Made by a program: the position numbers and the translations under genes
The notes under the pieces: model-generated
The model's database searches: none
What the model saw: only the letters and a program-made list of their open reading frames with translations
What the model was told of the DNA's origin: nothing
DNA from: Methylocystis sp. MJC1
Lineage (GTDB): Bacteria > Pseudomonadota > Alphaproteobacteria > Rhizobiales > Beijerinckiaceae
DNA length: 64,000 nucleotides
Assembly (NCBI RefSeq): GCF_026427715.1
Contig: NZ_CP107561.1
Location: 1-64,000 of the forward strand
Reading direction: 5' to 3'
Part shown: positions 8,033 through 46,830 of the stretch, in pieces
Layout of the letters: each line of letters opens with the position of its first letter
How positions within the stretch are numbered: the stretch's first letter is position 1

Positions 8033-8066
8033 ACAACGGAGCCTGGTCGAGAGTGGACGCGTCCCA

Positions 8067-29805: not shown

Positions 29806-31671
29806 TCACGTAAAGAAGCAGGACAGATCATCCGCCATCGTTGGCACCAAGAGACTGCGGTCGAGGAAGAGGTTCCTCATCTCGCAGCTGGTTTCGGCGA
29901 TCAGGAGGCATCCATGGCAGGCGGCGCCGTGAGTCGCCCGATCCCCGCTCCTGTCGTCGGGTTCATGATCGGCGCAAACGGGGTCATTTGAGCAAATCCG
30001 CAGGCGGTCCAAGGCGTTTTTGAGGATGTAGGCAAACCTCGGAGCCGTCGCGACAAGTCCCCCGAGGGTGCCCTGCGCACCGGCGCTCGCGGTATAAATA
30101 AGGATCCCGCAGCGGTCGACGTCGCCGCTCACTCGCATGCTGGACAGCGCGTAGACACGTTCCTTCAGCGAACTGGCCGGATAGCCGCAATCGAGAGCGA
30201 TCTCGGCCATCAATGCGTGCGATATACTGTGCAGAAGTACGTAGGCCGTTCCAGGGTAGGCCGGTGCCTTCCCCGCAAATCGCTTTTGCCAGTGCCGGTA
30301 TCCAGCCAGCAGCTTTTGATTGCGGACAGCCGTGGCCTCCTTTTGAAGCCATGCCGCAATAGCGGCGGCATCAAAATGGATGAAGATACCTTCCCCAAAC
30401 TGCTCGATCGCCGGCAACCAGTCAGCATCACGGGATATCGGCGCGCCACGAACACTCAACTGAATATCTTCGATGTCCCCATCGGAGCCTGTGGGCGCCG
30501 CTTCAAAGCGCGTGAAGCCGTAGAGGCATGAAACCTCCCTCAGGCGATGCACCGCGACCAGGTTTTTGATTCCGGATAGGTCGATCCCAGCCTCAGGGTC
30601 TGCCCAAGCATCTCGCGGGAGGGTCTGTGCGTAGAGCTTTGCGGTCGGATGGTTCGCGCCGATCTCAGAACGGCCGCTGGCAAACGTATCGAACTCGGAC
30701 AGCTTTGGCGAACGCGTGGCGTCTGTTTTTGCGCCCTCACGAATGCGCTGCAGCCTATCGAAAATGTCGCCGTCCGAATAAGGACCGAGCGACGCCGATA
30801 CCTTTGGATTGAATTTCTTGGCTTGAGCAACATCCTGGACTGTTTGCACGCCAGCGAGATCGCCCGATAGCTCATCGACGAGCTGGCTGAGTTCGTCTTC
30901 CTCGGTAGGAAGCGAAATCACGGTGTGAACCTGCGGGAAGTAGGTATTCGTCGCGGTTCGCGTCAGGAGCTTGAGATTGTCCCCGCATCCTTCAGGGTCC
31001 CGGTCGAGCAGCCACGGGCGCTCGCCGCGGCATTTGCCGAGACGCCCTGGCTGGAAGGTGTCCTGAAGGGACAATCGACGGCCGCATCCACACACGATGC
31101 TGGTGTCGGCGGGGTCCGCGCTGGTTCCCTTTTCCTCCACCCACATCGGCTCGTGGCATGCCCCCGAACCGTGGACGACCCAGCGCCAGTCGATGTCTTG
31201 GAGATGCCCCTTGTCGCATGCGCACACGAAACGGATCGGCGTCACGTCGCTCTTCCGCCCGTCATCGTATTGGAACCTTCGACGGCCCTTACTGTCGAGG
31301 TCCTGCCAACGCACCAACCGCCGACGCCGCGTCGTTTTGGCGCCCGAGGTGTTGGTTTCCACCTGCTCGCAGATGAACCATGTCGGGAAGATCGGCGCAG
31401 CGACACCACGGGGCACGCCGTCCCTTGAATCAACCGATGTCGGCGGTGTTCTCAAGGTCAGACTGGCTGCCGGATCAAGGCGCCCTTGCTCCTTCAGAAT
31501 CTGCTCAAGACGCATCGTTAAACGCGGCTCGGGAAGGGTCGTGAAGGCGTTGCCCTTCATGTCCCATTGTTCGAGTCCGCCGACCACGACGGATCGAGTT
31601 GGCAGATCGATCATCGCCCCCGGACCGAAGGTCGAAATCAACTGGCTTAGGCGCTGCGCATTCTTGGTCAT
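29806..31671 (-). CDS. drmB: DISARM protein DrmB (DUF1998)
   Basis: A 621-aa DUF1998-domain protein. The N-terminus (LSQLISTFGPGAMIDLPTRS, VVVGGLEQWD) and the Cys-rich regions (FVCACDKGHLQDIDW, CGCGRRL) are typical of DrmB. The C-terminal DUF1998 part has LLHSISHALMAEIALDCGYP, GILIYTASAGAQGTLGGLV and a final Cys cluster (CSNDPVCADH, GAACHGCLLIAETSCEMRN). DrmB works with the DrmA helicase; the pair forms the core of DISARM and recognises phage DNA entry. Its ATG overlaps the drmA stop by 4 bases (ATGA). Confidence 0.88.
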   Translation of the reverse strand: MTKNAQRLSQLISTFGPGAMIDLPTRSVVVGGLEQWDMKGNAFTTLPEPRLTMRLEQILKEQGRLDPAASLTLRTPPTSVDSRDGVPRGVAAPIFPTWFICEQVETNTSGAKTTRRRRLVRWQDLDSKGRRRFQYDDGRKSDVTPIRFVCACDKGHLQDIDWRWVVHGSGACHEPMWVEEKGTSADPADTSIVCGCGRRLSLQDTFQPGRLGKCRGERPWLLDRDPEGCGDNLKLLTRTATNTYFPQVHTVISLPTEEDELSQLVDELSGDLAGVQTVQDVAQAKKFNPKVSASLGPYSDGDIFDRLQRIREGAKTDATRSPKLSEFDTFASGRSEIGANHPTAKLYAQTLPRDAWADPEAGIDLSGIKNLVAVHRLREVSCLYGFTRFEAAPTGSDGDIEDIQLSVRGAPISRDADWLPAIEQFGEGIFIHFDAAAIAAWLQKEATAVRNQKLLAGYRHWQKRFAGKAPAYPGTAYVLLHSISHALMAEIALDCGYPASSLKERVYALSSMRVSGDVDRCGILIYTASAGAQGTLGGLVATAPRFAYILKNALDRLRICSNDPVCADHEPDDRSGDRATHGAACHGCLLIAETSCEMRNLFLDRSLLVPTMADDLSCFFT

Positions 31672-34600
31672 GCGAGATCATCCGCGTTCGCGATCGTGTT
31701 TCCGTGGGGATCCCTGACCTTCAGGGTGACGTTGGGTTCCACGTCGCGCATGGAACGGCCCGCCACAAAGCGGCGGTGGGGTTCCGCCAAGTTGCCGATC
31801 TCGGGTTCGAGCGGCATGTGCAGTAGCCGATGCGGACTCTTTTTCTTGGCGTAGGCAAACGCATTGCCGCCCGCCGTCTGCTCATCGGAAGTTTCAATCC
31901 AGGCGTCCAAGATGTCGTCGATCAGCTTTGATAGAGCCGCGCGACCGCCAGCAATCATCTGTTCCGGCGCGCGATCGACGATCGAGTCTCGGACCAAGCT
32001 GCGGATCCCGACATTGTTCTTCAGTTCATTGACGGCAACATCCGGGGTGAGCGCGCCATCTACGTGACGCGCCGCAGCGACCACGACCGCAGCCAAGGCT
32101 CGATCCAGAGCCCGGGCCGCCCAAGGTGTGACGCTCGTCGCTTCAACAGCGCGATAGAAGGTGCGGTGGAATTGTCCGAATTGCTCGAAGTGCATCCGGT
32201 CACGCGGCTTGTGGAGGTTTAGAACCGCCAGCACCAGGCCCGGCCTGGAGTGGTCACGGCCGACGCGGCTGGTCGCCTGGATATATTCCGCAGCTGTCTT
32301 GGGCTGCCCCTGCACGACCATAAGCCCGAGGCGCGTGATGTCGAGACCTACCGAGATCATGTTGGTTGCAAGGGCCACATCGACGGTTTCGGCATCCCGA
32401 CCAAAGATCGCCTCCAGACGCTGCTTCGCCTTCGCAACCTCATCGGTCGAGACACGAGACGTGAGCTCCATCGGTTCCTTGATGGCTCGATCCGCGAACG
32501 GTGTATCGGCAGGGTCCACCCGGCGGCGTTGGGCGCCGTAACGAGCGGCGCGATCGCGCACTTCATCCTCGACGATCCGACGTGCCCCGCCCAACTCGCG
32601 CAGCGCATTGAAATAGCAAAGCGCCGTCATGTACGGATCGGCTGGATTTCGGGCCTTGGCGTCACCGGGGATATTCGCGTCGTACGCCGCCTGCGCGGCG
32701 GCGACGAGGGTGGTCAGAGAACGCAGAAAGACGAGCTTTGGGCCACGGCCTTGCGCCGCAATGCCGAGATAGAGACGGGCAGGATTGGTCGTTGACGGCA
32801 CGGTGCGAGCGAAGAAGCTGTCCACGCGATCGATGCCAGGGGGCGGAAAAATACGGGTGATGTCACGATCAAACAGAGCGGCGATTTGATCAGCCGCCCG
32901 TCTGACGGTGGCGGTCGACGCCACGATTTTCGGACGCACGCGGTTCTCGCCGACGCCTCGCGAGGCAAGTTGATCAATCGCCGCTTCATACAGACCCGCG
33001 ACCGTTCCAAGTGGCCCGGCGATAAGGTGCAATTCATCCTGAATGATGAGGTCGGGCGGATCGAGCGACCAACCGTTGCCCAACGGTCGGCCTTCGCCCG
33101 GTTCAGCCGCGCCGTAAAAGCCGACGCCATCTTCGAAACGGTCAACGTGCCCGAAGAAAGCGCCGGTCTCGCCCACCCACGGCAGAGCGGCGAACTTGTC
33201 CACCGTGGCGATCAGAAACGCCGGCAGGCGCCGGTAGATCGGCTCATCGACCGTAAGCACCGGCAGCGGTCGGTTCCGGCTGAACTCGCAGCCGGTGTTG
33301 GCGCAGCGAATTTCCAGATTGGTCGGTGCATGCTCGTTGGGCGTGCAGGAAAAAGATGACGGGGTGAACTCCGTTCCACACCAAGGACAGGCCTTGAGCG
33401 GAGCTGGCGCGCGCTTGTCGCGCCCGTTGCGATACCGCCGAATTCGACCAACAGCAGTGGTCTCGTCAGATTTTCCTTTGCCGCCGAGCTTGTTCGGCGA
33501 TGCATCGGAGCCGACCCACAGACCGATCTCGATCGGCCAGTCACCGAGCATTCGCCGGCCGCGCTCATCAACATTCTTGGGGTCGGTGCGCATAAGTTCC
33601 AGCGCGCAGACGACACCAGCGGCGCGGGCGAGCTGGTCGAGCGTAAGCAGGCGCAGCGTGTAGCGCATGATGACGGCGACGCCGGCGCCGAGCACGCCCG
33701 ATCCGCCCAGCCTCCGGTGTGCGATCACCAGCGCCGCGAGGCCGAGATAGGCTTCGGTTTTGCCACCGCCCGTCGGGAAAAAAAGCAGGTCCGCCGTCTC
33801 ACGATCAATATGAGTTCGGTCGATCAGCCCGGCCATGTTGAGCAGTACAAAGGCGAGCTGGAACGGCCGCCATTGCGGTTCGTCGAGTGCACTCGGATCG
33901 CCGGTAGCGCCGGCGACACGACGGCGCGCGGCCATGGAAACGGCGAGATTCATGAAGCGGAACGCCGTGCGGGCCTTCGCGTCCGTCGCGAGGATCTCGA
34001 TGCCCGTCGCAATCCGGTTCTTTGCAGTCTCCATCTCGGAAATAAGGCGTTCGCCGGTCTCGCGGCGGCGCGTGGGAACACCTGCGAGCTTCTTACGCTC
34101 GGCGTCGATCCACATCCCATAGAGCACGGGCAGATCGGCCAATGCGGCGCGAAGTCCGGCGCCATCGCCCTCCGCCAACTGCGCGAGCGCTTCCATACCG
34201 AAGGCGACCTGCGCCTTGAATTCAACGTCCTCATTCGGCGCAACGCGTTCGACCTCCGCCGATGGCAGTGGATCGGTCCACACCCGCGTCACATCGCCGG
34301 CGCCGTCTTCAGAAGTGTCCCATCCAGCGGCCGCATTTCGGCCAACAGCCCACTCGCGCATGTCGCGATAGTGCAGATCGGCGATCCGAAGGTCCCAATC
34401 CTGGGCGCGATAGCCGGAAAGGTCCCGACGCGGGCGGAACCCGGTTTCGCAGACAAGCTCTAGTCGCGCCTGAAACGCGTAGCTGACATCGGCATAAAAG
34501 CGGTGAACGGTGGCGCGGCGATTGACGAGGAAAACAGTGAGGGCGCGGACGCGCTCCGTCTTGCCGTCCGGCGTCGTGTAACTGAACAGACGCGAGTGTG

Positions 34601-35213
34601 TTTCCAAAACCAGACCACCGCCCCGGCGTTGTTCGGCGGCGCTTTCCGGCACGACGATTGGCCCGCCGCGGCCGTCCTTGATGGGAAGAGCCACGACGCG
34701 GTCTCTCGGGGTCCTAACCCAGTCGACCATAGGCCTTTCGGTCCGCTTGGGCTTGCCGTCCTCGCCAAGCTCCTCGGGCAGGGGCTCGGGCAGAAGGATC
34801 GCCTCAGGCAATGGCGGTTCGGTTCGATAGTCGCCCCAGGAAACACGCGCTTCGATCGACGTGACATCCGGATCGAGCAAAACCGTCAGTCCAACGGACG
34901 AAGGAAGGAAACGCCGACGGGCGTTCGGGGCTTCCGGCTCCTCGTTGTCGGTCGCAGCGCCGCCAACGCCATCCGCGTCCGGCTCCTCGACGTCGATTTC
35001 CATTTCTTCCTGGGCGGACGGATCGTTCTCGTCGTCATTCCCATCGAGGGCGAGCGAATCCTCCGCAGGCGCGAGAAACCCGGCGAGGTACCAGCGTGCC
35101 GGGCTTTCGTTCAGCCGCTCGTTCGCCAGATCGGCGTCTTGCGGCCCCGGCCCAATAAGGTCACGACGAAAGACGTCCACGATATGGGCGCGAATATCGA
35201 CCGAGTTTGTCAT
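31668..35213 (-). CDS. drmA: DISARM helicase DrmA
   Basis: An 1181-aa helicase. Walker A is in LLFFPTGGGKTEAYLGLAAL (near residue 479). Motif II is the DrmA-type DELH box (LIIQDELHLIAGPLGTV, near 727). The helicase C domain has NMISVGLDITRLGLMVVQGQ and YIQATSRVGRDHSRPGLVL (near 955-1000). A Cys-rich insert (CPWCGTEF ... CANTGCEF) lies between the lobes. DrmA is the conserved helicase of all DISARM systems. It overlaps the PIN-like gene by 4 bases at its start and drmB by 4 at its end. Confidence 0.9.
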   Translation of the reverse strand: MTNSVDIRAHIVDVFRRDLIGPGPQDADLANERLNESPARWYLAGFLAPAEDSLALDGNDDENDPSAQEEMEIDVEEPDADGVGGAATDNEEPEAPNARRRFLPSSVGLTVLLDPDVTSIEARVSWGDYRTEPPLPEAILLPEPLPEELGEDGKPKRTERPMVDWVRTPRDRVVALPIKDGRGGPIVVPESAAEQRRGGGLVLETHSRLFSYTTPDGKTERVRALTVFLVNRRATVHRFYADVSYAFQARLELVCETGFRPRRDLSGYRAQDWDLRIADLHYRDMREWAVGRNAAAGWDTSEDGAGDVTRVWTDPLPSAEVERVAPNEDVEFKAQVAFGMEALAQLAEGDGAGLRAALADLPVLYGMWIDAERKKLAGVPTRRRETGERLISEMETAKNRIATGIEILATDAKARTAFRFMNLAVSMAARRRVAGATGDPSALDEPQWRPFQLAFVLLNMAGLIDRTHIDRETADLLFFPTGGGKTEAYLGLAALVIAHRRLGGSGVLGAGVAVIMRYTLRLLTLDQLARAAGVVCALELMRTDPKNVDERGRRMLGDWPIEIGLWVGSDASPNKLGGKGKSDETTAVGRIRRYRNGRDKRAPAPLKACPWCGTEFTPSSFSCTPNEHAPTNLEIRCANTGCEFSRNRPLPVLTVDEPIYRRLPAFLIATVDKFAALPWVGETGAFFGHVDRFEDGVGFYGAAEPGEGRPLGNGWSLDPPDLIIQDELHLIAGPLGTVAGLYEAAIDQLASRGVGENRVRPKIVASTATVRRAADQIAALFDRDITRIFPPPGIDRVDSFFARTVPSTTNPARLYLGIAAQGRGPKLVFLRSLTTLVAAAQAAYDANIPGDAKARNPADPYMTALCYFNALRELGGARRIVEDEVRDRAARYGAQRRRVDPADTPFADRAIKEPMELTSRVSTDEVAKAKQRLEAIFGRDAETVDVALATNMISVGLDITRLGLMVVQGQPKTAAEYIQATSRVGRDHSRPGLVLAVLNLHKPRDRMHFEQFGQFHRTFYRAVEATSVTPWAARALDRALAAVVVAAARHVDGALTPDVAVNELKNNVGIRSLVRDSIVDRAPEQMIAGGRAALSKLIDDILDAWIETSDEQTAGGNAFAYAKKKSPHRLLHMPLEPEIGNLAEPHRRFVAGRSMRDVEPNVTLKVRDPHGNTIANADDLA

Positions 35214-35725
35214 GACCGCCCAAGCCCCTCTGAGATAAACAATTCTCCAAGGACCTTTTCAAGCCACTTGGCGGTGTAGGCCAATTTCAGAGCCTCTCTC
35301 GGTCGATGCCCTGCATCGTCGAGAAGGGCTTCCAGAGCGATCAGCCGATCCTTGAGGCCAAGCCGAACGCCGAAACGCATACTGGCCTTGTCAGGCCCGC
35401 ACAGAACCCACGCATCGCTTCGCGTCAGCGCATGCGCCCATAGTGACCTCTCGCCCACGTCCAAGGCGATGTCTGGCGCTCGAACGGCCACGACGGCGCG
35501 CTGCGCATCCCCCACCGGATGGACCGCCTTGAGCGTCGCCGCCAGTTGGGTGGCGTCGATCTGCAATTCGGGCCGCCGGCGCTGAAAGCCGGTCTGCGTC
35601 TCGGTCACGCAATCCTCGACCGTCTCGACACTGTAGCCGCTCGAAAGCGCGCGCCAGGATCCGACCCGGAAGCACTCCAGGATGGCGTTGGTATCGATGA
35701 GGACTGGTCCCTGGTGGCGAGCCAT
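35210..35725 (-). CDS. PIN-like domain protein in DISARM operon
   Basis: A 171-aa protein with a PIN-type start (PVLIDTNAILECFRVGSWRA, D11-T-N13), acidic residues near 37-42 (VEDCVTET), Asp near 103 (RSDAWVLCGPDKAS) and Asp near 128 (GLKDRLIALEALL). PIN domains are metal-dependent RNases, many of them toxins. It lies 6 bases after the XRE-ImmA gene and overlaps drmA by 4, so the four genes are coupled. Such a gene is not a standard DISARM component. It may be the toxin of a module with the upstream ImmA-type regulator, or an extra nuclease effector. Confidence 0.65.
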   Translation of the reverse strand: MARHQGPVLIDTNAILECFRVGSWRALSSGYSVETVEDCVTETQTGFQRRRPELQIDATQLAATLKAVHPVGDAQRAVVAVRAPDIALDVGERSLWAHALTRSDAWVLCGPDKASMRFGVRLGLKDRLIALEALLDDAGHRPREALKLAYTAKWLEKVLGELFISEGLGRS

Positions 35726-35731
35726 TGGACC

Positions 35732-36838
35732 TCACAGCTCGACAGGGGACGGAACCCCATGCGTCGTGAAGAGGTCGGCTAGATCGTCAACTGTCAGGTC
35801 CAGGAGCGCACCCGCCCGACGCGCCGAAATGCGGCCTTCGTCAACGGCGAGACCGATGACCTCCATGAACGGCTTCGAAAACAGCGGCGGCACAGTCGCC
35901 GGCCCGTTGTCACGTCCATTGTTGCGGATTGCCGCATCTGGAACCGCCCGCGCAACAGCGGGCCTCAACCGGCCCAACGCGACAAGCCGCCACTTGAGCG
36001 CCGAGGCCGTGACCTGAAGTTCATTCGCTACCGCGTTCAAGCGACCGGCGAGTTCGCCTGCGTCGATGGTTGACCAATCGCCGTACCGATCGAGCACGGG
36101 CGTCGGCATCAGAACCGCCGACGCGAAATTGTTGGCGAGTTGCTCCACGCGGTTCCCGCCGGTCTCTCGCGCCTCCTCAGAATGCTCAGGCGGCATCGCG
36201 TCCCAGGTGAGGATATGGAAAAGCTCGTGGGCCAGGTCGAAGTGGCGTCGCCCCTCGACCTCGTGCCGATTGATCAGCGCCACATCCAATTCCGGAAGAC
36301 GGCACGCCGCGCCGGAAATGCCCTGGAACGCATCCACCATGAGCACAAGGATGCCCAGCTCGCGCTCCATGACATCGACGAGCCGCTTCGCCGGCACATC
36401 GCCAAGCTCGAACTCCGTGACGAAGCGCTCTCCGGCTTCCATGGCGTCTTCGAAGCGCTGATGGCGCGCGATGCCGAGCGACCGCCGCAGCAGTGGAGCC
36501 GATCGACCGACCTGGGGCGCGATCGCGCGGAATGCGGCGATCCAGCGCCCTGCGTTGCGCTCATAGGCGCTCAGCTTCTGTGGACCGACATCGGTTTGCC
36601 GCCACGAAAACCGGCCCTCCCCGACGAGCAGGAATGGGTCGGTGAAGTAGTCCAGCGTAGCGCCGAGCTTCTCGACAGCCAGGACAAGCTCCTCGACCGT
36701 CACCCGCCGCTCGCCGGTCTCGATCGCCGAAACCGTTTGGCGGTCCTTGAAACCGAACAGGCGCGCAAGGTCGTCCTGCGAGAGCCTTCGCTCCTCGCGC
36801 AACGCCTTGATCCTCGCTCCAATGAAATTCGTGTGCAT
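35732..36838 (-). CDS. XRE-family regulator with ImmA/IrrE metallopeptidase domain
   Basis: A 368-aa protein. Residues 1-70 form an XRE HTH (IKALREERRLSQDDLARLFG, QTVSAIETGERR). A COG2856/ImmA-IrrE zinc protease domain follows, with the H-E-x-x-H box HFDLAHELFHILTWD (HELFH ~204-208) and EQLANNFASAVLMP downstream. Such proteins cleave repressors or act as antitoxins; XRE-COG2856 proteins paired with PIN-like toxins have been proposed as toxin-antitoxin systems. It heads the operon with the PIN-like gene, drmA and drmB. A perfect 12-8-12 palindrome lies 20 bp upstream of its start and is its likely operator. Confidence 0.85.
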   Translation of the reverse strand: MHTNFIGARIKALREERRLSQDDLARLFGFKDRQTVSAIETGERRVTVEELVLAVEKLGATLDYFTDPFLLVGEGRFSWRQTDVGPQKLSAYERNAGRWIAAFRAIAPQVGRSAPLLRRSLGIARHQRFEDAMEAGERFVTEFELGDVPAKRLVDVMERELGILVLMVDAFQGISGAACRLPELDVALINRHEVEGRRHFDLAHELFHILTWDAMPPEHSEEARETGGNRVEQLANNFASAVLMPTPVLDRYGDWSTIDAGELAGRLNAVANELQVTASALKWRLVALGRLRPAVARAVPDAAIRNNGRDNGPATVPPLFSKPFMEVIGLAVDEGRISARRAGALLDLTVDDLADLFTTHGVPSPVEL

Positions 36839-36858
36839 GACCGCCTCCCCGGATGGGT

Positions 36859-36890
36859 ATAATCTTGCAAATCATCGATTGCAAGATTAT
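36859..36890. promoter_or_regulatory. Perfect 12-8-12 palindromic operator
   Basis: ATAATCTTGCAA (36859-36870) and TTGCAAGATTAT (36879-36890) are exact inverted arms around ATCATCGA. It sits in the divergent gap between the XRE-ImmA gene and the DUF2188 gene, the expected binding place for the XRE regulator controlling the drmA-drmB operon. Confidence 0.7.
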
Positions 36891-36940
36891 CTTGCGCTGA
36901 TAAGGTCGAGTCGGTCGGCCTTTGGCCCATGGAGGTTCCC

Positions 36941-37144
36941 ATGACGGATAAGCGGGTTTTCATTGAGCGCCGCCCCGGCGAAGGCGATTACGCGGTGCGC
37001 AAGCCAGGCTCGGAGCGGGCCAGCGCCGTTCTGCCGACCCAGGCGGAAGCGATTGACTGGGCTCAGCAACGCGGCGCGGACGTTTTCGTTGAGCGAGTGC
37101 GCCAGACCAAGGTGGGCCATCCGGACAAGTGGCGCCGGCCGTAA
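36941..37144 (+). CDS. DUF2188-like small protein
   Basis: A 67-aa protein (MTDKRVFIERRPGEGDYAVR, then RASAVLPTQAEAIDWAQQRG) with the DUF2188 pattern of a short beta segment followed by a TQAEAI helix. GGAGG 5 bases before the ATG at 36941 sets the start. It is divergent from the XRE-ImmA gene and shares the palindromic operator region. DUF2188 function is unknown. It is the only plus-strand gene within the DISARM island. Confidence 0.65.
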   Translation: MTDKRVFIERRPGEGDYAVRKPGSERASAVLPTQAEAIDWAQQRGADVFVERVRQTKVGHPDKWRRP

Positions 37145-37346
37145 TTGGCCGGCACCTCTAATCTCGGTTAGTCGTCATCTTCCTCGTCAACCGGCTCGTC
37201 CCCTTCCGGCTCGGTCCCGCACGCGCGACGATCCGCGCAACGCAAGCAGCCATCAGTTGTCAGCGTTCTGACCAACTTCAACTAGAACGTGACACTAGTC
37301 AGTCTGCGTGCCGATGCCGAGCCCGCGCGCTCACGCACCAACGAGT

Positions 37347-38480
37347 CTAATACATTAAGCCGAAACGCCGACCGCTTTGCATTTTCAGATCCTCAAAGGA
37401 AATTGACGCCTTCTTCCATTTAGTTAGGAGCGCCTCGTCACCAAGAACGAGCCTAAAGCGAGGCATTCCGGCTGGAGAAAACCCATGCCTTTCAAAAAGC
37501 AAGATCGAGTTATCGTAACTCGCTGGTCCTTCTGTTCCAGGAATGGGAAGATTTATCTTATCCATCATATTGTTCCCGAATCTCACAGAGCATTCGACCG
37601 ACGGGAAGCCGACGTTTTGCAATTCAACGTGCCCAAACACCGTATTTTTTGGAACCGTCTTCGGAGTGAATCCAAAAAACACCCGTGAACCACGCGGCAG
37701 GTCTACCTGGTTTCCAGCCTCCGAAGCGCCGCGATTTTTGTAGAGCTCTCCTATTATCTCGACCCAGAGTTTCCTTGCGAATGCTAAGCCTATCGCCTTT
37801 CGTCCTGCGATTACATGCCCGGCACCACCAACAAAGAGATCCACAATTTCTGCGCTCTCATCCTTTAGCGGCGGCTTGAACTTCTTCCACCGCGACTTGT
37901 AGGTCGGAATGATATCGCTTAGCGGATCGGCCTGATCCCATGCCGGATCGAACCAAGTCATGCTACGATAGGCGCTCATCATAGCTGACTGTTCGTGGGA
38001 TTTTGGCCTATTCCAATAAGACAGTGCACCACACTCTGAGCCGGTCAACAGACCACTGCCGGTTAAATTTCCAGACCCCAAGAATATGCCGAAGACAGAA
38101 CTGTCGCCATCGTTTACATCGTCAACAACGTAAGCCTTCGGGTGAAAAGGATTCGCCGGTGAAAATCCAGGATTTTGAACGACACTTTTACCGTTCGGGA
38201 TTCTGACTTGTGAATGCGGTAGGTTCGCAAGAAACTCCAGAGCCTCCGGCTCAGTTCTGCCAAAGTCAATACTTATTAGCCAACGCTTCTGAGATGCCGC
38301 CCAACGCCCAGAGCCTGATGCTTCCTGATTCAGAATCTTGCAGCCGTTAATACTGGCGTAAGCGACGGCCGCTCGAAAGCGGCGGTAGCCTCTGAGCTTC
38401 AAAAGTGACGATACGCCTTGAAGCGTTTCGCCAATTGCACCACTCGCCTTGTGTTGGATATGCCACTCTTGGACGTACAT
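37347..38480 (-). CDS. drmC: PLD-like nuclease, probable DrmC
   Basis: A 377-aa protein with one phospholipase-D-type motif: FHPKAYVVDD (H-x-K-x4-D) followed by FLGSGNLTGSGL (G-S-x-N). This is the arrangement of PLD-superfamily nucleases that act as dimers. DISARM systems contain a PLD gene, drmC, so it is the natural candidate, though here it lies after drmMI instead of after drmB and is rather long. It starts 37 bases after the drmMI stop. The sequence is clearly A/T-richer than the drmA, drmB and drmD genes. DrmC is reported as dispensable in some systems. Confidence 0.7.
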   Translation of the reverse strand: MYVQEWHIQHKASGAIGETLQGVSSLLKLRGYRRFRAAVAYASINGCKILNQEASGSGRWAASQKRWLISIDFGRTEPEALEFLANLPHSQVRIPNGKSVVQNPGFSPANPFHPKAYVVDDVNDGDSSVFGIFLGSGNLTGSGLLTGSECGALSYWNRPKSHEQSAMMSAYRSMTWFDPAWDQADPLSDIIPTYKSRWKKFKPPLKDESAEIVDLFVGGAGHVIAGRKAIGLAFARKLWVEIIGELYKNRGASEAGNQVDLPRGSRVFFGFTPKTVPKNTVFGHVELQNVGFPSVECSVRFGNNMMDKINLPIPGTEGPASYDNSILLFERHGFSPAGMPRFRLVLGDEALLTKWKKASISFEDLKMQSGRRFGLMY

Positions 38481-38517
38481 CCCTGTATCCTATGCACGAT
38501 TATTTAGCACTCTCGTT

Positions 38518-41500
38518 TCATGATTCATCATCACTCTCTTGTTCAACCATGTTAACGACGAGACCCATTTTACGTTCGACGTCAGCGCGCTCCGCATTCA
38601 GCGCAAGCAATCTGGCAAGGACCTCGTCCTTGAACTTCGCAGGCCACTCGAAGCGGGTCTTTGCTGCCTTTCCTTCGTCGGCATCCTGCTCAATGAACTC
38701 TGGCGCCGCGACCTCTGCGAGGTCCCGCCAGCCGTAGGCGCGCAACACTGCTGCATCCATGTCGGCATGGAGCGCTCGGAGGCGGGTTACTTTAGGGTTC
38801 CTTTCGTCTCGCGCATGAAAGCGATTGTAGGTCTTCGTCAGTCCTTCGTCGTGCTTTTGCAATGTGCTTGCGCGAAAGGCATTGTAGGCCTCGCCGACGA
38901 TTTCGAGATTCTCATTCGTTTGAAAATCACTTGGAAAAGGGAAGGTTCGGAAGCAATCCGACGGTGCATAACGTAAATCGTCTTTCATTGATGACGAAAA
39001 GAACCTCGCCCAGAGTTCATGGACACGTGATTGAAGAACCGCGAAGGGAGCAAACGATGAATAAGCTATTACGACAAGTTGATCACTGTAGATCATTCCT
39101 GCAGGCAATACGGCCACCGCCAGATGTGGCGATACCCTGGCAATGCTTAGAACCCGCGGCAATCCAGAGATGGCGCGCCTTAACGCAGGTCGGTCATTCC
39201 AATATTTCCACCACTCGTTATACATACGAGGATACTTTTTATTTTTTTCTTGCTGCCTCTCTGGTCGCACCCGATCTTCAAGGATTTTCAGCAGTGCTGG
39301 ATATCTTATTTGGGCTTCCGCAAACTCTAAATCATTCAAATCGATCGCAAATCGATGATGTTTTTGTATGGGATCTGTATTTACTTCTTCTCCACCGATA
39401 TAAGGAAGAACTCTTTCAGAGAGCGCTTCGTTTCCTGTGAGAAGGCGCTCCATATCAGCAAGCGAGGATGCTGCGCCCCGTTCGGCAGCTATATCGTCGA
39501 ACGTAAACCCCATTCCAAGCATAATAACACCCTGGAATGCTCGATTTGAATTTGCCGCAAGAGGTGCCGGGGACGTGTCCAGATTGCCATCAACTAAATA
39601 AGCAGAAATCCGAGATGCGCGCCTTTCGTCGAGTATCGGAGAGATTGCGTTACCCTTGATGACATGGACAACGGATACAATTACGGCAGCTTCACCGGGC
39701 CATCGCAGCCGTTTTGTTGCACGGGCGATCTCGCCTCCCTTAGACAAGATTGCGGTTAATCCGGCAGCGCGCGTATCGCCCTGTCCGATCGTATTTGTCG
39801 CAATAAGACCAAAACATCCGCCGTTTTGTAATAGTCTGAACGACTGACAGAAAAAATGTGCGACCAAATCAGCGTTGCGACTAGCATTGTCGTGTGAGTT
39901 GGCAAGCCAAACATTATATGGGGCACCAAATTCTTCAGAAATTCGCTTACCACCCAGGAAAGGAGGATTTCCTATGATGGCGGAAAATCCGCAGTCTTTT
40001 CGTGCGAAGACCTCAGGGAATTCTATTTCCCAATGGAAAGGTCGAATCGGATTTTGGGCAACTTTCAGTGATGATGCCAAGTGTTCCAACTTGAGCCATA
40101 TGTTGTTTGTCGAATCGTTTGCCCAACTCTCAATTTCTTGTCGCTTTTGCTCCCTTATCTTCGGTTTTTCGCTGGAGAAAAATGCGGCGACCACTGCATC
40201 AGCAATCACTCGCACGTTATCAAGACGGCTTTCCACCTGCCTGTAACGAACTTCCTGGACGGCGCGCATCACGCTGTCAGGTGCCTCGCGAATTTCGTGA
40301 CGTCCGCTGATAGCGGCTTCCAGACGTTCTCGGACCAATCCTTCGAACAGTGGCAGCCCTTTCCCAGTATCCCAGTGTAGGCCGGTGATTTGCTGTCGGG
40401 TTAGCCCCACTAGGCTGTCACCGCATTTCAACGCGTGATCGAGGAATGTGAACTCATGGTCACGCGCGAGCGTGGCTAACCAAAGTGATAGCCGCGCGAG
40501 ATCGACCGCGCGCGGGTTCTTGTCCACGCCATAGAGACAGCGCTGTGCGACGAGCCGCCGAGCATGAAGCTCCTCGTCCTCGTCCGCAGGAATGGTGGGG
40601 CGCGTCTCGGGCCAACGCGCCCAGGCCGCGACCAGACGCTCGCCCAAAGCGCGGCAGGCCTCAACCAGGAAGGCGCCCGAGCCCATCGCCGGGTCACACA
40701 CCTTCAGCTCCAGCACCTGCTCCGGCGTCGCGTCCGGCCCCAGCCGCTCGAAGGCCGGCTCCAAAGCGTATTTGACGATCGGCGCCGTGAGCGACCTCGG
40801 CGTGTAGTGGCTGCCGGTCCGTCGCCGTTCGCCGGTCGGCTGCAGGATCGGCGTCCCGGACGCCGCGACCCTCTTCTTGGGCGAGCCGCGCTCATCGACC
40901 ATGCCGTCGAGCGCCGCCACAAGATCCTCGACACTCTTGGCATCCTCGACCGGCTTGGCTTGCGCCGCCGTCAGGGCGCGCCCGACATTCTCCTTCAGCT
41001 CCTTGATTCGGTCCTTGCCCTTCTTGGCGAGAAGGTCATCGAGCGCTACGAACACCGGCGTCTTGTTGTTCTTGCCCGCCTTGATGGCGAGCACGCGGCT
41101 CTTGGCGGCCTCGACCGTGAAGCCCATGACGGTCTCGTAGACCGACCCGATCTGTTCGACGTCGAGGGTCCGGTAGGACAGTCGCTCGCGCTCGGCGCCG
41201 CGCAGCTTCAGGGTCATGAGCTCTTCGAGGATGCGCAGCAGACACCCATCCGACACGGCCAGAATCCGGCTCGGCTCATCCTTGGAGACGCGACCCTCGA
41301 GAAACGGGAACTCGTCCGGGTCGAACAGCTTGCCGCCACGCGCCTGCACGAAGCCGGTCTCGTGACCTTTGTGGATCAAGCGAAACAGCGCCAGCAGGCC
41401 GCCCCATCCGCCGCGACGCTCATCCATCGTGTCGGGATTGAGCGTGGCGTCTTCCGTGAGCTTCGCGTAAAGCCCGCGAACCGAATAGCTCGTCTCGTAA

Positions 41501-42474
41501 ATCTCCCGCGCACGCGCATCGGACCGCGACGGCAGGAGGTCCCGGTCCTCTGCGTAGAGCACGAAAACCAGACGCATCAGGACAGTCAGCAGCCCCTCAT
41601 AGAGATGATCGGGACGGTTGGCCGCAAGGTCGCGCACGAGACCAGGTTCCGCGCTGTCCAGACCGCGCAACAGTTCGTGGAGCGCGCCGAGAACTTGTTC
41701 GGCCAGAGCGGTTGAAACCAGCGCCTGGGCATCGCGACTATGCTTCAGGAGCGCCGGCAGCCGCCGGTCATCGGCATCGGAAAAGAGCCGGAACCGATCA
41801 AGTAGGAGCTTCAGTCCGCCAAGCATCGGCCGCCCGGCCACCATCGCCATGGGCCGGATCGGAAAGCTCTGATGGCCCGACGTCTCACCGCGCGGCGCAT
41901 AGATCAGCCGAAACTCGGGATAGTACCGAACCTCGCCATCCTTGTGCTCATCGCGTTCGGAAATCAGCAGGCCAGCAAAGACGCCGGTATCGCGCAGCAA
42001 GCGCTCGAACCGCTGGTGCGGTGTCGCCTCCCACCCATCGAGCGCGTTCCGGGCATCGGGATCGACGCCAGGCGCCTCTATACGAACCAGAAGCTGCCAG
42101 CGGCAATCTCCCTCCCCAAGCTCGGCAACTGCCCACGTCGGCCGAAGCGTGGTGCCATGCTCCGGGAGAGCCACGAGCAATTCATCTGGAATGGCCGGGC
42201 CGCCCGGCGCGCCGGCGACATGGCGCGCCTCCCAGCCAAGCACCTGTTCGACAAAGGCCCAAGGATCAGTGAGTGCGGGCTTGGAAAGTTCCGAGCCAAT
42301 AATCTCGCCAACCTGGCCGGTGTCGATCGGCGTTTGCCTGAGCGGCAAAAGCCCCAATTCCTTAAGGAGACTAGGAGCGACGACGAGGCCCACCGGCGGC
42401 ACATGGTCCAGCCATTCGAGATCGGGGTCGCGAGAGATTTCTGCAGCCATCGTGCTTACCCCGATACCGGCCAC
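38518..42474 (-). CDS. drmMI: DISARM adenine methylase DrmMI
   Basis: A 1318-aa Eco57I/PglX-type N6-adenine DNA methyltransferase. SAM motif I is DPAMGSGAFLVEACRAL (near residue 595). The catalytic N-P-P-F box is SAIIGNPPFLGGKRI (near 835). The 590-residue N-terminal part is helical, and the C-terminal ~450 residues hold target-recognition sequence. In class 1 DISARM, DrmMI marks host DNA as self. It overlaps drmD by 19 bases. Base composition falls sharply near 40450: the N-terminal half is GC-rich, while the C-terminal half and the next gene are A/T-rich, which suggests replacement of the specificity part by recombination. Confidence 0.87.
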   Translation of the reverse strand: MAGIGVSTMAAEISRDPDLEWLDHVPPVGLVVAPSLLKELGLLPLRQTPIDTGQVGEIIGSELSKPALTDPWAFVEQVLGWEARHVAGAPGGPAIPDELLVALPEHGTTLRPTWAVAELGEGDCRWQLLVRIEAPGVDPDARNALDGWEATPHQRFERLLRDTGVFAGLLISERDEHKDGEVRYYPEFRLIYAPRGETSGHQSFPIRPMAMVAGRPMLGGLKLLLDRFRLFSDADDRRLPALLKHSRDAQALVSTALAEQVLGALHELLRGLDSAEPGLVRDLAANRPDHLYEGLLTVLMRLVFVLYAEDRDLLPSRSDARAREIYETSYSVRGLYAKLTEDATLNPDTMDERRGGWGGLLALFRLIHKGHETGFVQARGGKLFDPDEFPFLEGRVSKDEPSRILAVSDGCLLRILEELMTLKLRGAERERLSYRTLDVEQIGSVYETVMGFTVEAAKSRVLAIKAGKNNKTPVFVALDDLLAKKGKDRIKELKENVGRALTAAQAKPVEDAKSVEDLVAALDGMVDERGSPKKRVAASGTPILQPTGERRRTGSHYTPRSLTAPIVKYALEPAFERLGPDATPEQVLELKVCDPAMGSGAFLVEACRALGERLVAAWARWPETRPTIPADEDEELHARRLVAQRCLYGVDKNPRAVDLARLSLWLATLARDHEFTFLDHALKCGDSLVGLTRQQITGLHWDTGKGLPLFEGLVRERLEAAISGRHEIREAPDSVMRAVQEVRYRQVESRLDNVRVIADAVVAAFFSSEKPKIREQKRQEIESWANDSTNNIWLKLEHLASSLKVAQNPIRPFHWEIEFPEVFARKDCGFSAIIGNPPFLGGKRISEEFGAPYNVWLANSHDNASRNADLVAHFFCQSFRLLQNGGCFGLIATNTIGQGDTRAAGLTAILSKGGEIARATKRLRWPGEAAVIVSVVHVIKGNAISPILDERRASRISAYLVDGNLDTSPAPLAANSNRAFQGVIMLGMGFTFDDIAAERGAASSLADMERLLTGNEALSERVLPYIGGEEVNTDPIQKHHRFAIDLNDLEFAEAQIRYPALLKILEDRVRPERQQEKNKKYPRMYNEWWKYWNDRPALRRAISGLPRVLSIARVSPHLAVAVLPAGMIYSDQLVVIAYSSFAPFAVLQSRVHELWARFFSSSMKDDLRYAPSDCFRTFPFPSDFQTNENLEIVGEAYNAFRASTLQKHDEGLTKTYNRFHARDERNPKVTRLRALHADMDAAVLRAYGWRDLAEVAAPEFIEQDADEGKAAKTRFEWPAKFKDEVLARLLALNAERADVERKMGLVVNMVEQESDDES

Positions 42475-45400
42475 AGATAGACAAGGCCGACGGGCTCCAG
42501 ACGATGGGCGCGCACCTCATAGGAGTCCTGAAGACGCTTCGGCTCATCGCGCAATTCACGTTCAAGTCGGGTCAGGCGGCCTTCCCAATGTCGCCGATCC
42601 GCTTCACGCTCACGCCGTTCCTCGGGCACGAGATCGAGAGTTAGCTGATTGGGGTCAAACTCCTTTGCCGCTTTGGCGATGCGCGATCGCTGCTGTTCAA
42701 GCAGGTCGGACAGCGACCGCGCTTCTTCCTCGCCACGCTTTTGGAGTTGCGCCGTAACCGTCGTCAGTCGCTCGGCTGCGAACTTTTCCAGCGTCGGCAC
42801 GAGGTCGGCAATATCCTTGGCTACCAGAGTTTGGATACGAGCGACGGCCGCGCCTGGCGCTTCACGCGCGTCGCGCAGCGCTGCTTCAAGCTGGTTGAGG
42901 GTCTTTTCCTCGCCGCTCTCGCCAAGCGGTCGGAGAGCCTTGCGGTCGCGTTCTGACTCCGTCCAGATCGCGGTGATCGGGATGACCTCCTCATGCAACC
43001 GCGCGGCTCCGGCGCCAAAGACCGCCAAACGTCCCATCAACACGACACGGGGCTGAGCGCCCGGCCCATAGATGACAGAAACGCGCGACAGTTTCGATTG
43101 GAAACCCTGGCTGAGGAAGCGCGAGAGCAGGCGTCGCACAAGCCGGTGCTCGAGATGCACCTGCACCACGTTCGGCGCATCCGGGCCATTTTGATCATCC
43201 CCCAGGATAGGCGGCTTGAAGGAAATCGAACGGATCGGTGCATCGCGTCGCCAGTCGCCCAGGCGCTCGCCACGCTTGCGCGGCCGAACTCGCAGATCGT
43301 CGAAAGCATCATCCCAGCCAGCGTCTTTGGTGAACGCGGGATCGCTGGGATCGAGGCGGTATGTTTCCACGTTGCCGACCGACGCGCCACGGGCGTCATC
43401 GAGCACGTAGCCGACGCGCGATAATGCCGCCGCCGCCACGCGATGCAAATCGTCCGGATCAACACCGACGCGTTCCCGCGAGCGTTCGAGCGCGCGCTGA
43501 AGATCGGTCTGCTCCTTGAGCAACCGCTCGTGCCGCGCGCGTTCGTCATCGTCCATTTCGGCGCGCGCGCGATTGAGCCGTTCCGCGTCGCTTTCCTCAG
43601 CAATGGCCCGAGCGATCGCCGCGCCCTGTCCGCGCAAAATGCCGCCTTCGGCCAGACGCTTCGCTATGCGGTCCTCGATCACCTGGCCGACCGATCCGAG
43701 CTGTTCGCGGATGGTCTCCGTCTTCCGGACCAACGCCTCCAATACGATGTCGGCTTCACGCTGCTCGTAGCGGAAGTACCGACAAATGACCTGTTTCGCC
43801 GGCTGAAGCTTACGATCGATACGGCCGTTGCGCTGCTCCAATCGCGAGGGGTTCCAAGGCAGATCGAAATGAATCAGGTCGGAGCAATAGCTTTGCAGGT
43901 TGATGCCCTCGCGGGCTGCGTCGGTGCAGATGAGGATGCGCAACGGCTCAACATCCGGATCAGCGTTGAAGGCCCGTTTTACCTCCTCCCTTCGATCCGA
44001 TCCTGTCGCGCCGGTGAAGACGCCAATTCTCTCGTCGGCGCGATCCGTGTCCGATACCGCCTCTCGCAGGCGCCGTTCGAGCCACCGCCGCGTGTCCTCG
44101 TATTCGGTGAAGATGATGAGGCGCCGGCGATTCCAGTTTTGGCCCGCGAGAAGGTTTGCTTTGATCCAATCGGTCAACCAGCGCACCCGGGCGTCGGGGC
44201 GCGACGCGTACCGCTCGGCGACGGCCAACATCTCGTCGACCGCAGCAAGTTCAGTGCGAAGGTCCCCCTTCGCGGCGTCGGCAACACCGAGGGCTGACGC
44301 GGCCTCCGCCGTCGCATCATCATCCGCGTCGATGGTCTTCTCGGCTCGCTCGTCTTCAAGCCCAAGCTCGGCGCTGTCTTCGCTCGCCGGGCCGCCCACA
44401 AACGCGAGGGCAGCAGCGGCGACCAAGCCGGCCTCTTCGCCGTCGAGCATTCGCTGCAATGTCGTCCTGTGGACCTTCAGGGTCCGCGCGAACGCAGCAA
44501 CCGATGACAGGAGCCGTTGCTGGAGACCGACAAAGGCCAGCTTTGCCATTGATGCTTTCTGGGTCGGAAGATTGGCGATGCGCCGCATCCGCATCTCGCC
44601 GTAGGCGGCCAGCTTCCGGGCAAGTTCGAGTTCAGGCGCATCCTCCGGCAAACCAGCTATGCGAACCGCCTCGATGATCCGCTCCGGAAACGCCTCGCCA
44701 AGGCGGCGAAGATCGGCCTTGAGCCGCCGAACCATGACGGGCTCGATATCCCTGGGGCGAACCTCGACCCCGCGCGTGAAGCGCTGGGGATCGAGCATCT
44801 CAAGCAAAGCCGAAAAGCTGTTGGAGTGCCCATTGTGTGGGGTAGCTGTCAGGAACAGGCGGTGCTCGAAGCGTTCTCCGAGTTCACGAACCGCCTTGGT
44901 GAGTTGGCTTGAGATCGCATAGCGAATTCCGGCCGCCGGGGCGGCGTGGTGCGCCTCGTCCAGCACGAAAAGCGCGCGGGCGCGAAACTCGCCGAGCACG
45001 TCACGGAGGCCAGCGGCATAGACTTCATCCGTGAGGAGACGGTGCGAGACAATGAAGCGCGAGCCGGTCGCCCAAGGATTCACGGAGAAGCCCCGAAGCC
45101 GGCGCATCTGGCCAATCCGCTCCCTATCGATGATTTCGAACGAAAGTCCGAATTTCGCTTCCAGCTCGTCCTTCCACTGGATCGTCATCGCAGGCGGAGC
45201 AGCAATGACGATGAAATCGATCCGGCGCCGGAGCAAAAGCTCGCGCGCGACCAGACCTGCCTCGACGGTCTTGCCCAGGCCCACATCATCCGCGATCAAC
45301 AGATTCACGCGCGGAAGCCGCAACGCCTTACGCAGCGGCAGGAGTTGGTAGGCATCGAGCCGAATGCCCGCCCGAAACGGCGCTTGCAACAAGTCGCGGT

Positions 45401-45695
45401 CAGCCGCGGTCGCGGATCGCCATCTTATCGCGCGAAGGTGGGCGGCCAACACCTCGGCCCGGTCTGGAAGGCCGGCGCCGACATTCCGCCATCCCTCCTC
45501 ATCGAGCACGACGGCGCCTATTTCGGCATCCCAGAGGATTTCAAGCCGCTCGCCCTGAGCATCGTCAGAAATGCACGAGAGGTTGAGGGTCTGGAGGTCG
45601 TTCACTTCGCCTTGGACTTCCTCGACCAGCCACGGACGGCCCCGCAGCTCGACGAAACTTCCCGGTTCGATTGTCGCCCCGCCTGTACTCTGCAT
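42456..45695 (-). CDS. drmD: DISARM SNF2-like helicase DrmD
   Basis: A 1079-aa SNF2-family helicase. Walker A is LIADDVGLGKTVEAGLVARE (near residue 137). The DEAH box is VLDEAHHAAPAAG (near 247). The C-terminal lobe has ICTDAAREGINLQSYCSDLI and NPSRLEQRNGRIDRKLQPAK (near 590-625). A charged coiled-coil-like C-terminus ends near PVSG. DrmD marks class 1 DISARM. Its start overlaps the stop of the Phd-like antitoxin gene by one base (TAATG), so the two are translationally coupled. Confidence 0.88.
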   Translation of the reverse strand: MQSTGGATIEPGSFVELRGRPWLVEEVQGEVNDLQTLNLSCISDDAQGERLEILWDAEIGAVVLDEEGWRNVGAGLPDRAEVLAAHLRAIRWRSATAADRDLLQAPFRAGIRLDAYQLLPLRKALRLPRVNLLIADDVGLGKTVEAGLVARELLLRRRIDFIVIAAPPAMTIQWKDELEAKFGLSFEIIDRERIGQMRRLRGFSVNPWATGSRFIVSHRLLTDEVYAAGLRDVLGEFRARALFVLDEAHHAAPAAGIRYAISSQLTKAVRELGERFEHRLFLTATPHNGHSNSFSALLEMLDPQRFTRGVEVRPRDIEPVMVRRLKADLRRLGEAFPERIIEAVRIAGLPEDAPELELARKLAAYGEMRMRRIANLPTQKASMAKLAFVGLQQRLLSSVAAFARTLKVHRTTLQRMLDGEEAGLVAAAALAFVGGPASEDSAELGLEDERAEKTIDADDDATAEAASALGVADAAKGDLRTELAAVDEMLAVAERYASRPDARVRWLTDWIKANLLAGQNWNRRRLIIFTEYEDTRRWLERRLREAVSDTDRADERIGVFTGATGSDRREEVKRAFNADPDVEPLRILICTDAAREGINLQSYCSDLIHFDLPWNPSRLEQRNGRIDRKLQPAKQVICRYFRYEQREADIVLEALVRKTETIREQLGSVGQVIEDRIAKRLAEGGILRGQGAAIARAIAEESDAERLNRARAEMDDDERARHERLLKEQTDLQRALERSRERVGVDPDDLHRVAAAALSRVGYVLDDARGASVGNVETYRLDPSDPAFTKDAGWDDAFDDLRVRPRKRGERLGDWRRDAPIRSISFKPPILGDDQNGPDAPNVVQVHLEHRLVRRLLSRFLSQGFQSKLSRVSVIYGPGAQPRVVLMGRLAVFGAGAARLHEEVIPITAIWTESERDRKALRPLGESGEEKTLNQLEAALRDAREAPGAAVARIQTLVAKDIADLVPTLEKFAAERLTTVTAQLQKRGEEEARSLSDLLEQQRSRIAKAAKEFDPNQLTLDLVPEERREREADRRHWEGRLTRLERELRDEPKRLQDSYEVRAHRLEPVGLVYLWPVSG

Positions 45696-45892
45696 TATTC
45701 GTCCCGCTTCTTGGTCTTCTCGGCTTTTTCAAGCTCCCGCGCAGCCGCTTCCGCCAAACGCTCATATTCTTCGACCGCGAGCACGACCACGACGGCGCGA
45801 CCGTGTTTTTCGACGGTCACGGGCTCGGCTCGGGCCAAGTCGATGAGCCGACCGAAGTTGTATTTCGCGTCTCTGGCCGAAAGCGTCCGCAT
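45695..45892 (-). CDS. Phd/YefM-type antitoxin, no visible toxin
   Basis: A 65-aa protein from the ATG at 45892: MRTLSARDAKYNFGRLIDLA, then EPVTVEKHGRAVVVVLAVEEYERL and a charged C-terminal tail. This is a Phd/YefM antitoxin (N-terminal DNA-binding fold, C-terminal toxin-neutralising tail). A longer 100-aa frame exists upstream, but family members begin at this Met. The expected toxin (Doc, YoeB or a PIN protein) is not adjacent; drmD follows directly with a TAATG overlap. It may act as autoregulator of the DISARM operon. The PIN-like gene at 35210 is a possible remote partner. Confidence 0.75.
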   Translation of the reverse strand: MRTLSARDAKYNFGRLIDLARAEPVTVEKHGRAVVVVLAVEEYERLAEAAARELEKAEKTKKRDE

Positions 45893-46272: not shown

Positions 46273-46830
46273 ATGCGAAGTCTGCTGATTTGCGCGCTCA
46301 TCCCAGTGCTGCTGTTCTCGCCGTTGCATCTCGCACGCGCGGAGAAAAATTCCGTCGTGCAAATTTACGCCGCGCCGGAAATGAATCTGGAGGAGATCGA
46401 TCGGTCCATTCTCGATCAACTCGGCCAGGGCGCGCGCGTCAATTTCGCAGATCGAGCGCTCAGTGATCGCATCGTCTTCGAGTCCCTCAGCAACGCGGCG
46501 GATCGCGGCGCGCACATCAGGATCTACTTAGATCCTCGCGAAGTCGATCGATTGGCGCTTGATAACGAGAACCCGCTAGTAAAACTGTCCCGCATGCGGA
46601 ACGTTGAAATCAAGCTGAAAGCATCAGCCGACGGCTCAATGCGCCTCAAAGGATACTCCGTGAACGGCTCGCTTCTCAGGATAGGCTCCGCGAACGAGTC
46701 ACACTCGGGCCTCGAACGTCAGGACAACGATCTTGTCGTGATTACGGAAAAGGATGCCGTCGCTGCGTTCGATCGCAAGTTCGAGGCGATGTGGGCGCGT
46801 CCGAACAACAAGAAATTCTCCTTCCCGTAA
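46273..46830 (+). CDS. Secreted PLD-like protein with degenerate catalytic motif
   Basis: A 185-aa protein with a signal peptide (MRSLLICALIPVLLFSPLHL, cleavage after A-R-A). The fold is that of the single-domain PLD-like proteins found near conjugation genes: VQIYAAPEMNLEEIDRSILD, IRIYLDPREVDRL and the end IGSANESHSGLERQDNDLVV. Where active relatives have H-x-K-x4-D (for example MHLKGYCVD), this one reads MRLKGYSVN. The catalytic His is Arg and the Asp is Asn, so it is probably catalytically dead. The ATG has AGGAG 10 bases upstream. It may bind DNA or a partner in the periplasm. Confidence 0.75.
   Translation: MRSLLICALIPVLLFSPLHLARAEKNSVVQIYAAPEMNLEEIDRSILDQLGQGARVNFADRALSDRIVFESLSNAADRGAHIRIYLDPREVDRLALDNENPLVKLSRMRNVEIKLKASADGSMRLKGYSVNGSLLRIGSANESHSGLERQDNDLVVITEKDAVAAFDRKFEAMWARPNNKKFSFP

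Follow-up and report, generated by a model that had tools for sequence, protein, structure and literature searches.

An XRE-ImmA/PIN gene pair as a recurrent predicted head of the drmA-drmB unit in one lineage of class 1 DISARM

The first 64,000 nucleotides (nt) of contig NZ_CP107561.1 of Methylocystis sp. MJC1, a stretch that we call the window, carry a class 1 DISARM locus in which an XRE-ImmA/IrrE fusion gene and a PIN-like gene stand directly before drmA. Comparison with related loci upholds the idea of a DISARM wired to a toxin-antitoxin module and sharpens it: in one DISARM lineage the drmA-drmB unit recurrently begins with this pair and its putative operator. Pairs of XRE-ImmA and PIN genes are an already known predicted kind; no account of their fixed place inside DISARM was found in the literature searched. 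The features of the locus are:

45695..45892, minus strand: Phd/YefM-type antitoxin gene (Pfam PhdYeFM_antitox, 6.3e-14)
42456..45695, minus strand: drmD, SNF2-like helicase (NCBIfam DISARM_DrmD NF038317, 1011 bits, cut-off 610; PADLOC DrmD)
38518..42474, minus strand: drmMI, MmeI-like adenine methyltransferase (PADLOC DrmMI, 1212 bits)
37347..38480, minus strand: PLD/HKD-like gene, 377 residues (HxKx4D motif; some kin named HKD)
36941..37144, plus strand: divergent DUF2188 gene between the two units (Pfam DUF2188, 8.9e-8)
36858..36895, minus strand: operator- or promoter-like site of the second unit, conserved upstream of XRE
35732..36838, minus strand: XRE-ImmA/IrrE fusion (Pfam HTH_3 and Peptidase_M78; PADLOC RmrA, 64 bits)
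35210..35725, minus strand: PIN-domain (VapC-fold) predicted RNase toxin (structure model and fold matches)
31668..35213, minus strand: drmA, helicase (NCBIfam DISARM_DrmAS NF038325, 1096 bits, cut-off 950)
29806..31671, minus strand: drmB, DUF1998/MZB protein (NCBIfam DrmB_fam NF038324, 531 bits, cut-off 240; MZB)

The two units and the putative operator

Both core genes of class 1 DISARM, drmA and drmB, score above their cut-offs in the window and both signature genes, drmD and drmMI, are present; NCBIfam or PADLOC models confirm all four where a preliminary description of this DNA had placed them. On the minus strand the order of transcription is phd, drmD, drmMI and the PLD-like gene, and then, as a second unit, XRE-ImmA, PIN, drmA and drmB. 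The preliminary description had seen this split and had missed the divergent DUF2188 gene that separates the units (a 77-residue open reading frame at 36887-37120, matching nothing in Pfam, PADLOC or NCBIfam, was dropped in favour of this gene on the opposite strand). It had also set an XRE-ImmA gene and a PIN-like gene ahead of drmA, as Pfam domains and the structure model bear out, and had coupled the second unit by four-base overlaps; these are found between PIN and drmA (the PIN stop and drmA start share ATGA) and between the drmA stop and drmB start, while XRE and PIN lie 6 nt apart without overlap. As read from the sequence, XRE-ImmA, PIN, drmA and drmB run in one direction with hardly any space between them and form a single unit downstream of one conserved operator, and drmD-drmMI is another unit, without a clear copy of the XRE operator. 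As in class 1 DISARM (drmD-drmMI-drmA-drmB, with drmC optional), all four signature genes are present in the same order, the helicase/DUF1998 pair included; the locus differs in being split between drmMI and drmA by the XRE-ImmA/PIN pair, plus the PLD-like and DUF2188 genes, and in having no recognisable drmC.

The putative operator, at 36895-36858 upstream of XRE, consists of GCAAGATAATCTTGC, AA, eight bases and a third half-site TTGCAAGAT. It overlaps a promoter-like element (TTGCAA-17-TATACC) and has a single-strand fold z of -4.2; a promoter and terminator scan of 36800-37400 listed nothing. A pattern made for the site scores at least 6 in 91 of the 95 regions compared upstream of XRE, which include viral ones, and in 57 of 4750 random control windows. 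When a matrix was trained only on viral loci and on solo loci, by which we mean non-viral pairs without an adjacent drmA, its best hit fell within the 130 nt before XRE in all but one of 39 DISARM loci (38 of 39; the exception is L073), and within the window it scored 43.2 upstream of XRE against 7.1 at the best other place. We also considered a second XRE operator at drmD that would link both units; no clear copy was found, several loci having little or no sequence before drmD, and the weak hits there in L063 (17.6) and L065 (12.7) compare with 52.0 and 45.5 at XRE. Across loci the PIN stop and drmA start meet as ATGA in 28 of 38 cases and as TAATG in 4 more and, because PIN overlaps drmA in this way, XRE would most likely govern drmA and drmB besides its own gene and PIN. 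Near-copies L107-L110 (of L105) were left out of the PIN trees, the operator matrix test and the junction counts; L105 and L152 were left out of the junction counts, L152 also of the matrix test, distance correlations and slot-gap counts, and L057 and L059 of the corrected PIN tree and the residue and junction counts.

Recurrence and descent of the pair

A scan with a PIN alignment, taking one genome per species, confirmed 147 loci and also gave 11 viral contigs; the best 80 of the 147, the viral contigs, four plasmid loci, four loci that came from drmA searches and the window make up the 100 PIN loci that were read. XRE-ImmA lies directly upstream of PIN in 99 of the 100, whether drawn by PIN or by drmA (the exception begins at a contig end), with a computed gap of 7 or 8 nt in 55 of 99. 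PIN adjoins drmA in 37 of the 80 genome loci, including five near-identical decayed Mesorhizobium copies, and does not, within the sequence available, in 43. Among 58 class 1 loci the pair stands between drmMI and drmA in 36 (L058 and L152, with identical drmA, are both counted), nothing stands there in 13 and other content in 9. Since many of these loci were drawn by PIN, 36 of 58 is not a frequency, and loci drawn by drmA are a fairer guide: searches with drmA of 385, 398 and 297 partly overlapping genomes gave 13 genomes over the cut-off besides our own, and the pair is present in 4 of them (G716, G582, G752 and G789). PIN itself is scarce, occurring in 2 of 385 genomes of the class with our own included. 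The preliminary description had proposed to look for the additional genes in related DISARM loci, where they are indeed present, and its general idea of a DISARM system wired to toxin-antitoxin-type genes fits the recurrence of the pair there, mostly overlapping drmA.

The pair is retained within a drmA clade. On a drmA tree of 61 rows the pair needs 4 changes, compared to a mean of 18.2 after shuffling and with none of 500 shuffles as low, and the tree is compatible with one gain followed by losses in L122, L123 and L124. On a tree of PIN plus XRE, which includes four faulty PIN rows, 38 of 45 solo rows group together and branch within the DISARM rows, a pattern suggesting that the module moved out of DISARM and functions independently in the solo group. 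The rows at fault in this first PIN analysis were L085 and L100 (wrong frame) and L057 and L059 (other open stretches); on a corrected PIN tree the DISARM label needs 6 changes compared to 30.5 when shuffled. Pairwise gene distances, compared by Spearman correlation with the PIN row of L085 still mis-framed, gave 0.83 for XRE-PIN, 0.66 for XRE-drmA, 0.59 for PIN-drmA, 0.44 for drmMI-drmA and 0.85 for drmA-drmB; the distances of XRE track drmA better than those of drmMI do. An apparent PIN-DrmA fusion in L085 (a reading of 1324 residues) was ruled out as a wrong reading frame.

A predicted switch and its alternatives

The XRE-ImmA protein carries the motif HELFH at residues 204-208, and HExxH is retained in 40 of 40 DISARM rows; it is predicted to be a Rosmer-RmrA-like antitoxin or controller that joins a helix-turn-helix (HTH) repressor to a zinc metalloprotease. 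Its partner has no family match in Pfam (E 0.01), PADLOC or NCBIfam. The structure model of the PIN-like protein (predicted local distance difference test score 92.2) has a PIN fold with VapC4 as first Foldseek match, and a second structure aligner matches it to VapC toxins and also to PIN proteins of other roles; when the PIN alignment was run as a profile against solved structures, the matches were only weak (best E 0.28) and nearly all to phosphoglucomutases. With VapC-like toxins it shares the fold and an acidic active site, and it lacks their Pfam PIN family match. The acidic residues are kept nearly throughout, namely D11 in 93, E42 in 94, D89 in 93, E92 in 93 and D112 in 91 of 94 rows. 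PIN is broken beside an XRE of usual length in L057, L059, L067, L100 and a Mesorhizobium lineage, and L096 has a stop inside the PIN match, while the reverse (a whole PIN beside an XRE of less than 340 residues away from contig ends) is seen in L073 only. In these loci PIN decays more often than XRE, a lean in small numbers that fits a toxin and its antitoxin.

Several known systems resemble this arrangement in part. In RosmerTA the antitoxin role falls to an ImmA protein; pairing of ImmA proteins with PIN-like partners has been predicted, and the RmrT proteins are toxins of a different kind (PMC10440598). The window shares with these systems an HTH-ImmA protein beside a toxin-like gene, a PADLOC match to RmrA and constant pairing, and differs in that its PIN has no RmrT match in PADLOC and that the pair heads a DISARM operon. 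A study of 2009 predicted toxin-antitoxin systems in which a fused COG2856-Xre protein is paired with a PIN toxin, some of them residing in phages (PMC2701414), so both the PIN partners and the phage homes were already known for the class. A likeness in regulation is seen in PMC13373217, where CapP cuts CapH and controllers activated by single-stranded DNA precede immune operons, DISARM being among those named; CapH+CapP, CapW/BrxR and CapK+CapS share with our locus a controller of the DNA-damage or single-stranded-DNA type ahead of an immune operon, and VapKSC is a case in which a controller of this type is joined to a PIN toxin. Here the repressor and the ImmA protease are fused in a single polypeptide, compared to separate HTH and protease genes in CapH+CapP, and a toxin-like gene stands between controller and immune genes; an operator-like site, judged by sequence only, lies ahead of the immune operon here too. 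PrrC inside type I restriction-modification operons is a nested guard, an RNase toxin within a restriction operon; here the host system is DISARM and the partner a protease-type repressor.

The reading that we prefer, and hold to be evenly balanced between right and wrong, is a class 1 DISARM whose drmA-drmB half is under a Rosmer-like toxin-antitoxin module that serves as a switch and a second line. The HTH half of XRE-ImmA would bind the operator and hold expression of XRE, PIN, drmA and drmB low, and the protein would also keep PIN inactive. On infection or DNA damage, single-stranded DNA would activate the ImmA/IrrE domain, as for PprI and CapP; the repressor would then be cleaved or released, with DrmAB boosted and PIN freed for cutting RNA, both at once. 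DISARM would thereby gain a helicase that can be induced and an integral fallback that halts the cell if the helicase fails. For PprI/IrrE, single-stranded DNA is reported to activate cleavage of its repressor (PMC10904395), and DrmAB is reported to respond to DNA with a 5′ overhang (PMC9142583).

A number of observations weigh against this proposal. The TTGCAA-17-TATACC element falls below the threshold of a generic sigma-70 scan, and drmA may have a separate promoter within PIN. Pre-ribosome PIN chains match the PIN fold about as well as VapC does, and the protein matches no toxin family model. L073 keeps PIN and drmA without the HTH half of XRE and without the operator, which is hard to square with an antitoxin role of XRE unless the contig contains an error. 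The pair is dispensable, being missing in the related DISARM loci L122, L123 and L124; it is also absent from 9 of the 13 drmA-drawn genomes (two of the nine, G160 and G637, have no drmMI ahead of drmA) and from 35 of the 37 plasmid records in which the drmA match covers 80% or more of the query, many of them distant drmA (L002 and L003 have it). Nor would it act only through DISARM, since it occurs without adjacent drmA in 45 of 89 non-viral loci (two plasmids among the 45, and 37 of them with at least 2.5 kb of downstream sequence) and in the 11 viral contigs. Finally, the distances of drmMI correlate with those of drmD as well as the XRE distances do (0.72 and 0.71).

The last two points also favour an ordinary toxin-antitoxin module that just happens to lie within DISARM and serves to stabilise the island or plasmid, with drmA-drmB carried by read-through; the pair moreover follows TrwC relaxase genes in L041, L048, L053 and L103 and precedes housekeeping genes, for instance trpE, uvrC and queA. 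What speaks against this explanation, which we consider unlikely though far from negligible, is the fixed place and mostly overlapping drmA junction across a broad drmA clade, together with an XRE-drmA correlation that exceeds that of drmMI-drmA. Improbable, in our view, is that PIN is no suicide toxin and acts as an effector nuclease of DISARM that replaces DrmC and is recruited by DrmAB. DrmC is described as dispensable and frequently absent, with other nucleases proposed (PMC9142583), and drmC, searched for with two query sequences only, was found in none of 36 XRE-PIN loci compared to 13 of 22 other class 1 loci; however, the same search did not find it in the related PIN-less loci L122, L124 and L127 either, and PIN retains its XRE even without adjacent drmA. 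The effector reading also draws on a DEAD-MZB helicase of the MrfA/YprA kind that follows the solo pair after 49-124 nt in 5 of 45 loci (metagenome-assembled genomes L076, L077, L080, L084 and L095), a recurrence of note because the YprA family includes the DISARM helicase (PMC12458937); these helicases may be chromosomal neighbours only.

A chance or hotspot insertion, functionally unlinked to DISARM, would agree with the way the drmMI-drmA junction takes other genes (more than 400 nt in 9 of 22 PIN-less loci), and is made very improbable by the retention of the pair within the drmA clade, the overlapping junction and the conserved operator. Least credible of all is the model of the preliminary description, in which the leading Phd and the central PIN act as antitoxin and toxin to each other and damage to DISARM frees the toxin. 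Both genes exist in the window, and the Phd/YefM gene does head drmD as described, its stop overlapping the drmD ATG as TAATG. However, Phd lies directly before drmD in only 4 of 23 readable XRE-PIN DISARM loci (the window, L043, L044 and L047; of 26 loci, L152 was set aside as a duplicate, L003 for its broken drmD and L045 for want of sequence), compared to an XRE beside PIN in 99 of 100. Loss of DISARM as a trigger of the toxin is likewise hypothetical; as the pair is found without drmA, DISARM is not needed to hold it in check.

Neighbouring genes, nested modules and wider meaning

The phd gene starts with the ATG at 45892 and encodes 65 residues (the longest open reading frame extends to 45997), and no toxin gene adjoins it in the window; a small PLD (PLDc_2) gene at 46273-46830 on the plus strand diverges from the phd-drmD unit. 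The 377-residue gene had been called a PLD gene, for which the HxKx4D motif and relatives named “HKD family nuclease” speak, the HxKx4D/E pattern occurring in 65 of 120 among the homologues listed. It was rejected as a candidate drmC, having no match to DrmC, Pfam or NCBIfam models, and DrmC was matched by none of the 9 window proteins scanned with PADLOC and NCBIfam. Compared with L031 (Azorhizobium), L032 (Acidiphilium) and L035, the first 700 residues of drmMI are 90-97% identical per 100 residues and the remainder 16-75%; along drmMI the guanine-plus-cytosine content drops from 0.63-0.70 to 0.47-0.55, in a block that takes in the PLD-like gene. The breaks in identity and composition suggest that the methylation-specificity part of DISARM was exchanged, drmMI having the look of a half-exchanged gene.

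Solo pairs precede a variety of genes, among them a DSR2-like SIR2 protein (L041), an AbiJ-like protein (L048), a NERD/NACHT protein (L053) and methyltransferase-HNH proteins (L059 and L061); besides trpE, uvrC and queA, others precede genes for a solute-binding protein or an aminotransferase. In nine viral contigs (L113-L121) a diverged pair lies ahead of a gene of about 450-780 residues; of four such genes scanned, two matched only a PHROG of unknown function and two matched nothing. The operator pattern scores 5-19 of 21 in the 11 viral contigs, and in L116 a Sak4-like single-stranded DNA annealing gene lies near the pair.

The place taken by the pair is filled by other modules elsewhere. 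Of the 22 PIN-less class 1 loci, 9 have more than 400 nt at the drmMI-drmA junction, 3 at the drmD-drmMI junction and none at the drmA-drmB junction, and contents were examined in 8 of the 9 (all but L177). In a Thiodictyon plasmid (L125, 12431-13908), for instance, drmA is immediately preceded by a gene of 106 residues, an MqsA-type antitoxin gene and a gene for a SecB chaperone, which together resemble a toxin-antitoxin-chaperone module. A Nostoc plasmid (L126, 11935-13862) has an AAA protein with AriA and PtuA matches, next to a DUF4435 match below cut-off and a weak AriB match, and a Trichormus plasmid (L171, 11880-13863) has, by annotation, an ATPase and a DUF4435 gene; both resemble the PARIS pair. 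The others hold a GHKL ATPase and a methyltransferase-like protein (L183), XisH/XisI on the other strand (L184, Oscillatoria), three genes on the other strand, one of them AbiJ-like (L185, Nocardioides), and genes with no match in Pfam or PADLOC (L123 and L174). A second Peptidase_M78 (ImmA) protein of 514 residues (7275-8819) sits in the slot before XRE-PIN in L093. Toxin-antitoxin genes also stand before drmD in 6 of 23 readable XRE-PIN loci, as Phd in four, ribbon-helix-helix plus PIN_3 in L002 and TacA plus GNAT in L039. Because such modules sit both in the slot and before drmD, the drmMI-drmA junction could be a general nesting slot for death or control modules, with class 1 DISARM as a modular platform on which restriction and abortive infection travel together and are often co-expressed; the contents are few and mixed, and we put this forward tentatively, as somewhat doubtful.

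The window lies at the start of one contig of a 4.5-Mb, four-contig genome, and the replicon that carries DISARM looks like a plasmid, judging by its RepB/ParB, ParA and conjugation genes:

9.7-11.9 kb: RepB/ParB and ParA genes
26.1-28.2 kb: serine recombinase
52-58 kb: VirB4- and TrbL-type conjugation genes

A search by title or abstract opening, with the subscription literature mostly outside it, found no publication that treats XRE-ImmA or PIN genes in DISARM, and little on the silencing of DISARM or the consequences of its failure. If the proposed switch is real, a restriction system and an abortive toxin would share one control, so that a phage able to overcome DISARM would still face a further barrier, and helicase levels would rise only on need. 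Annotation tools should in that case count XRE-ImmA/PIN as part of this DISARM subtype.

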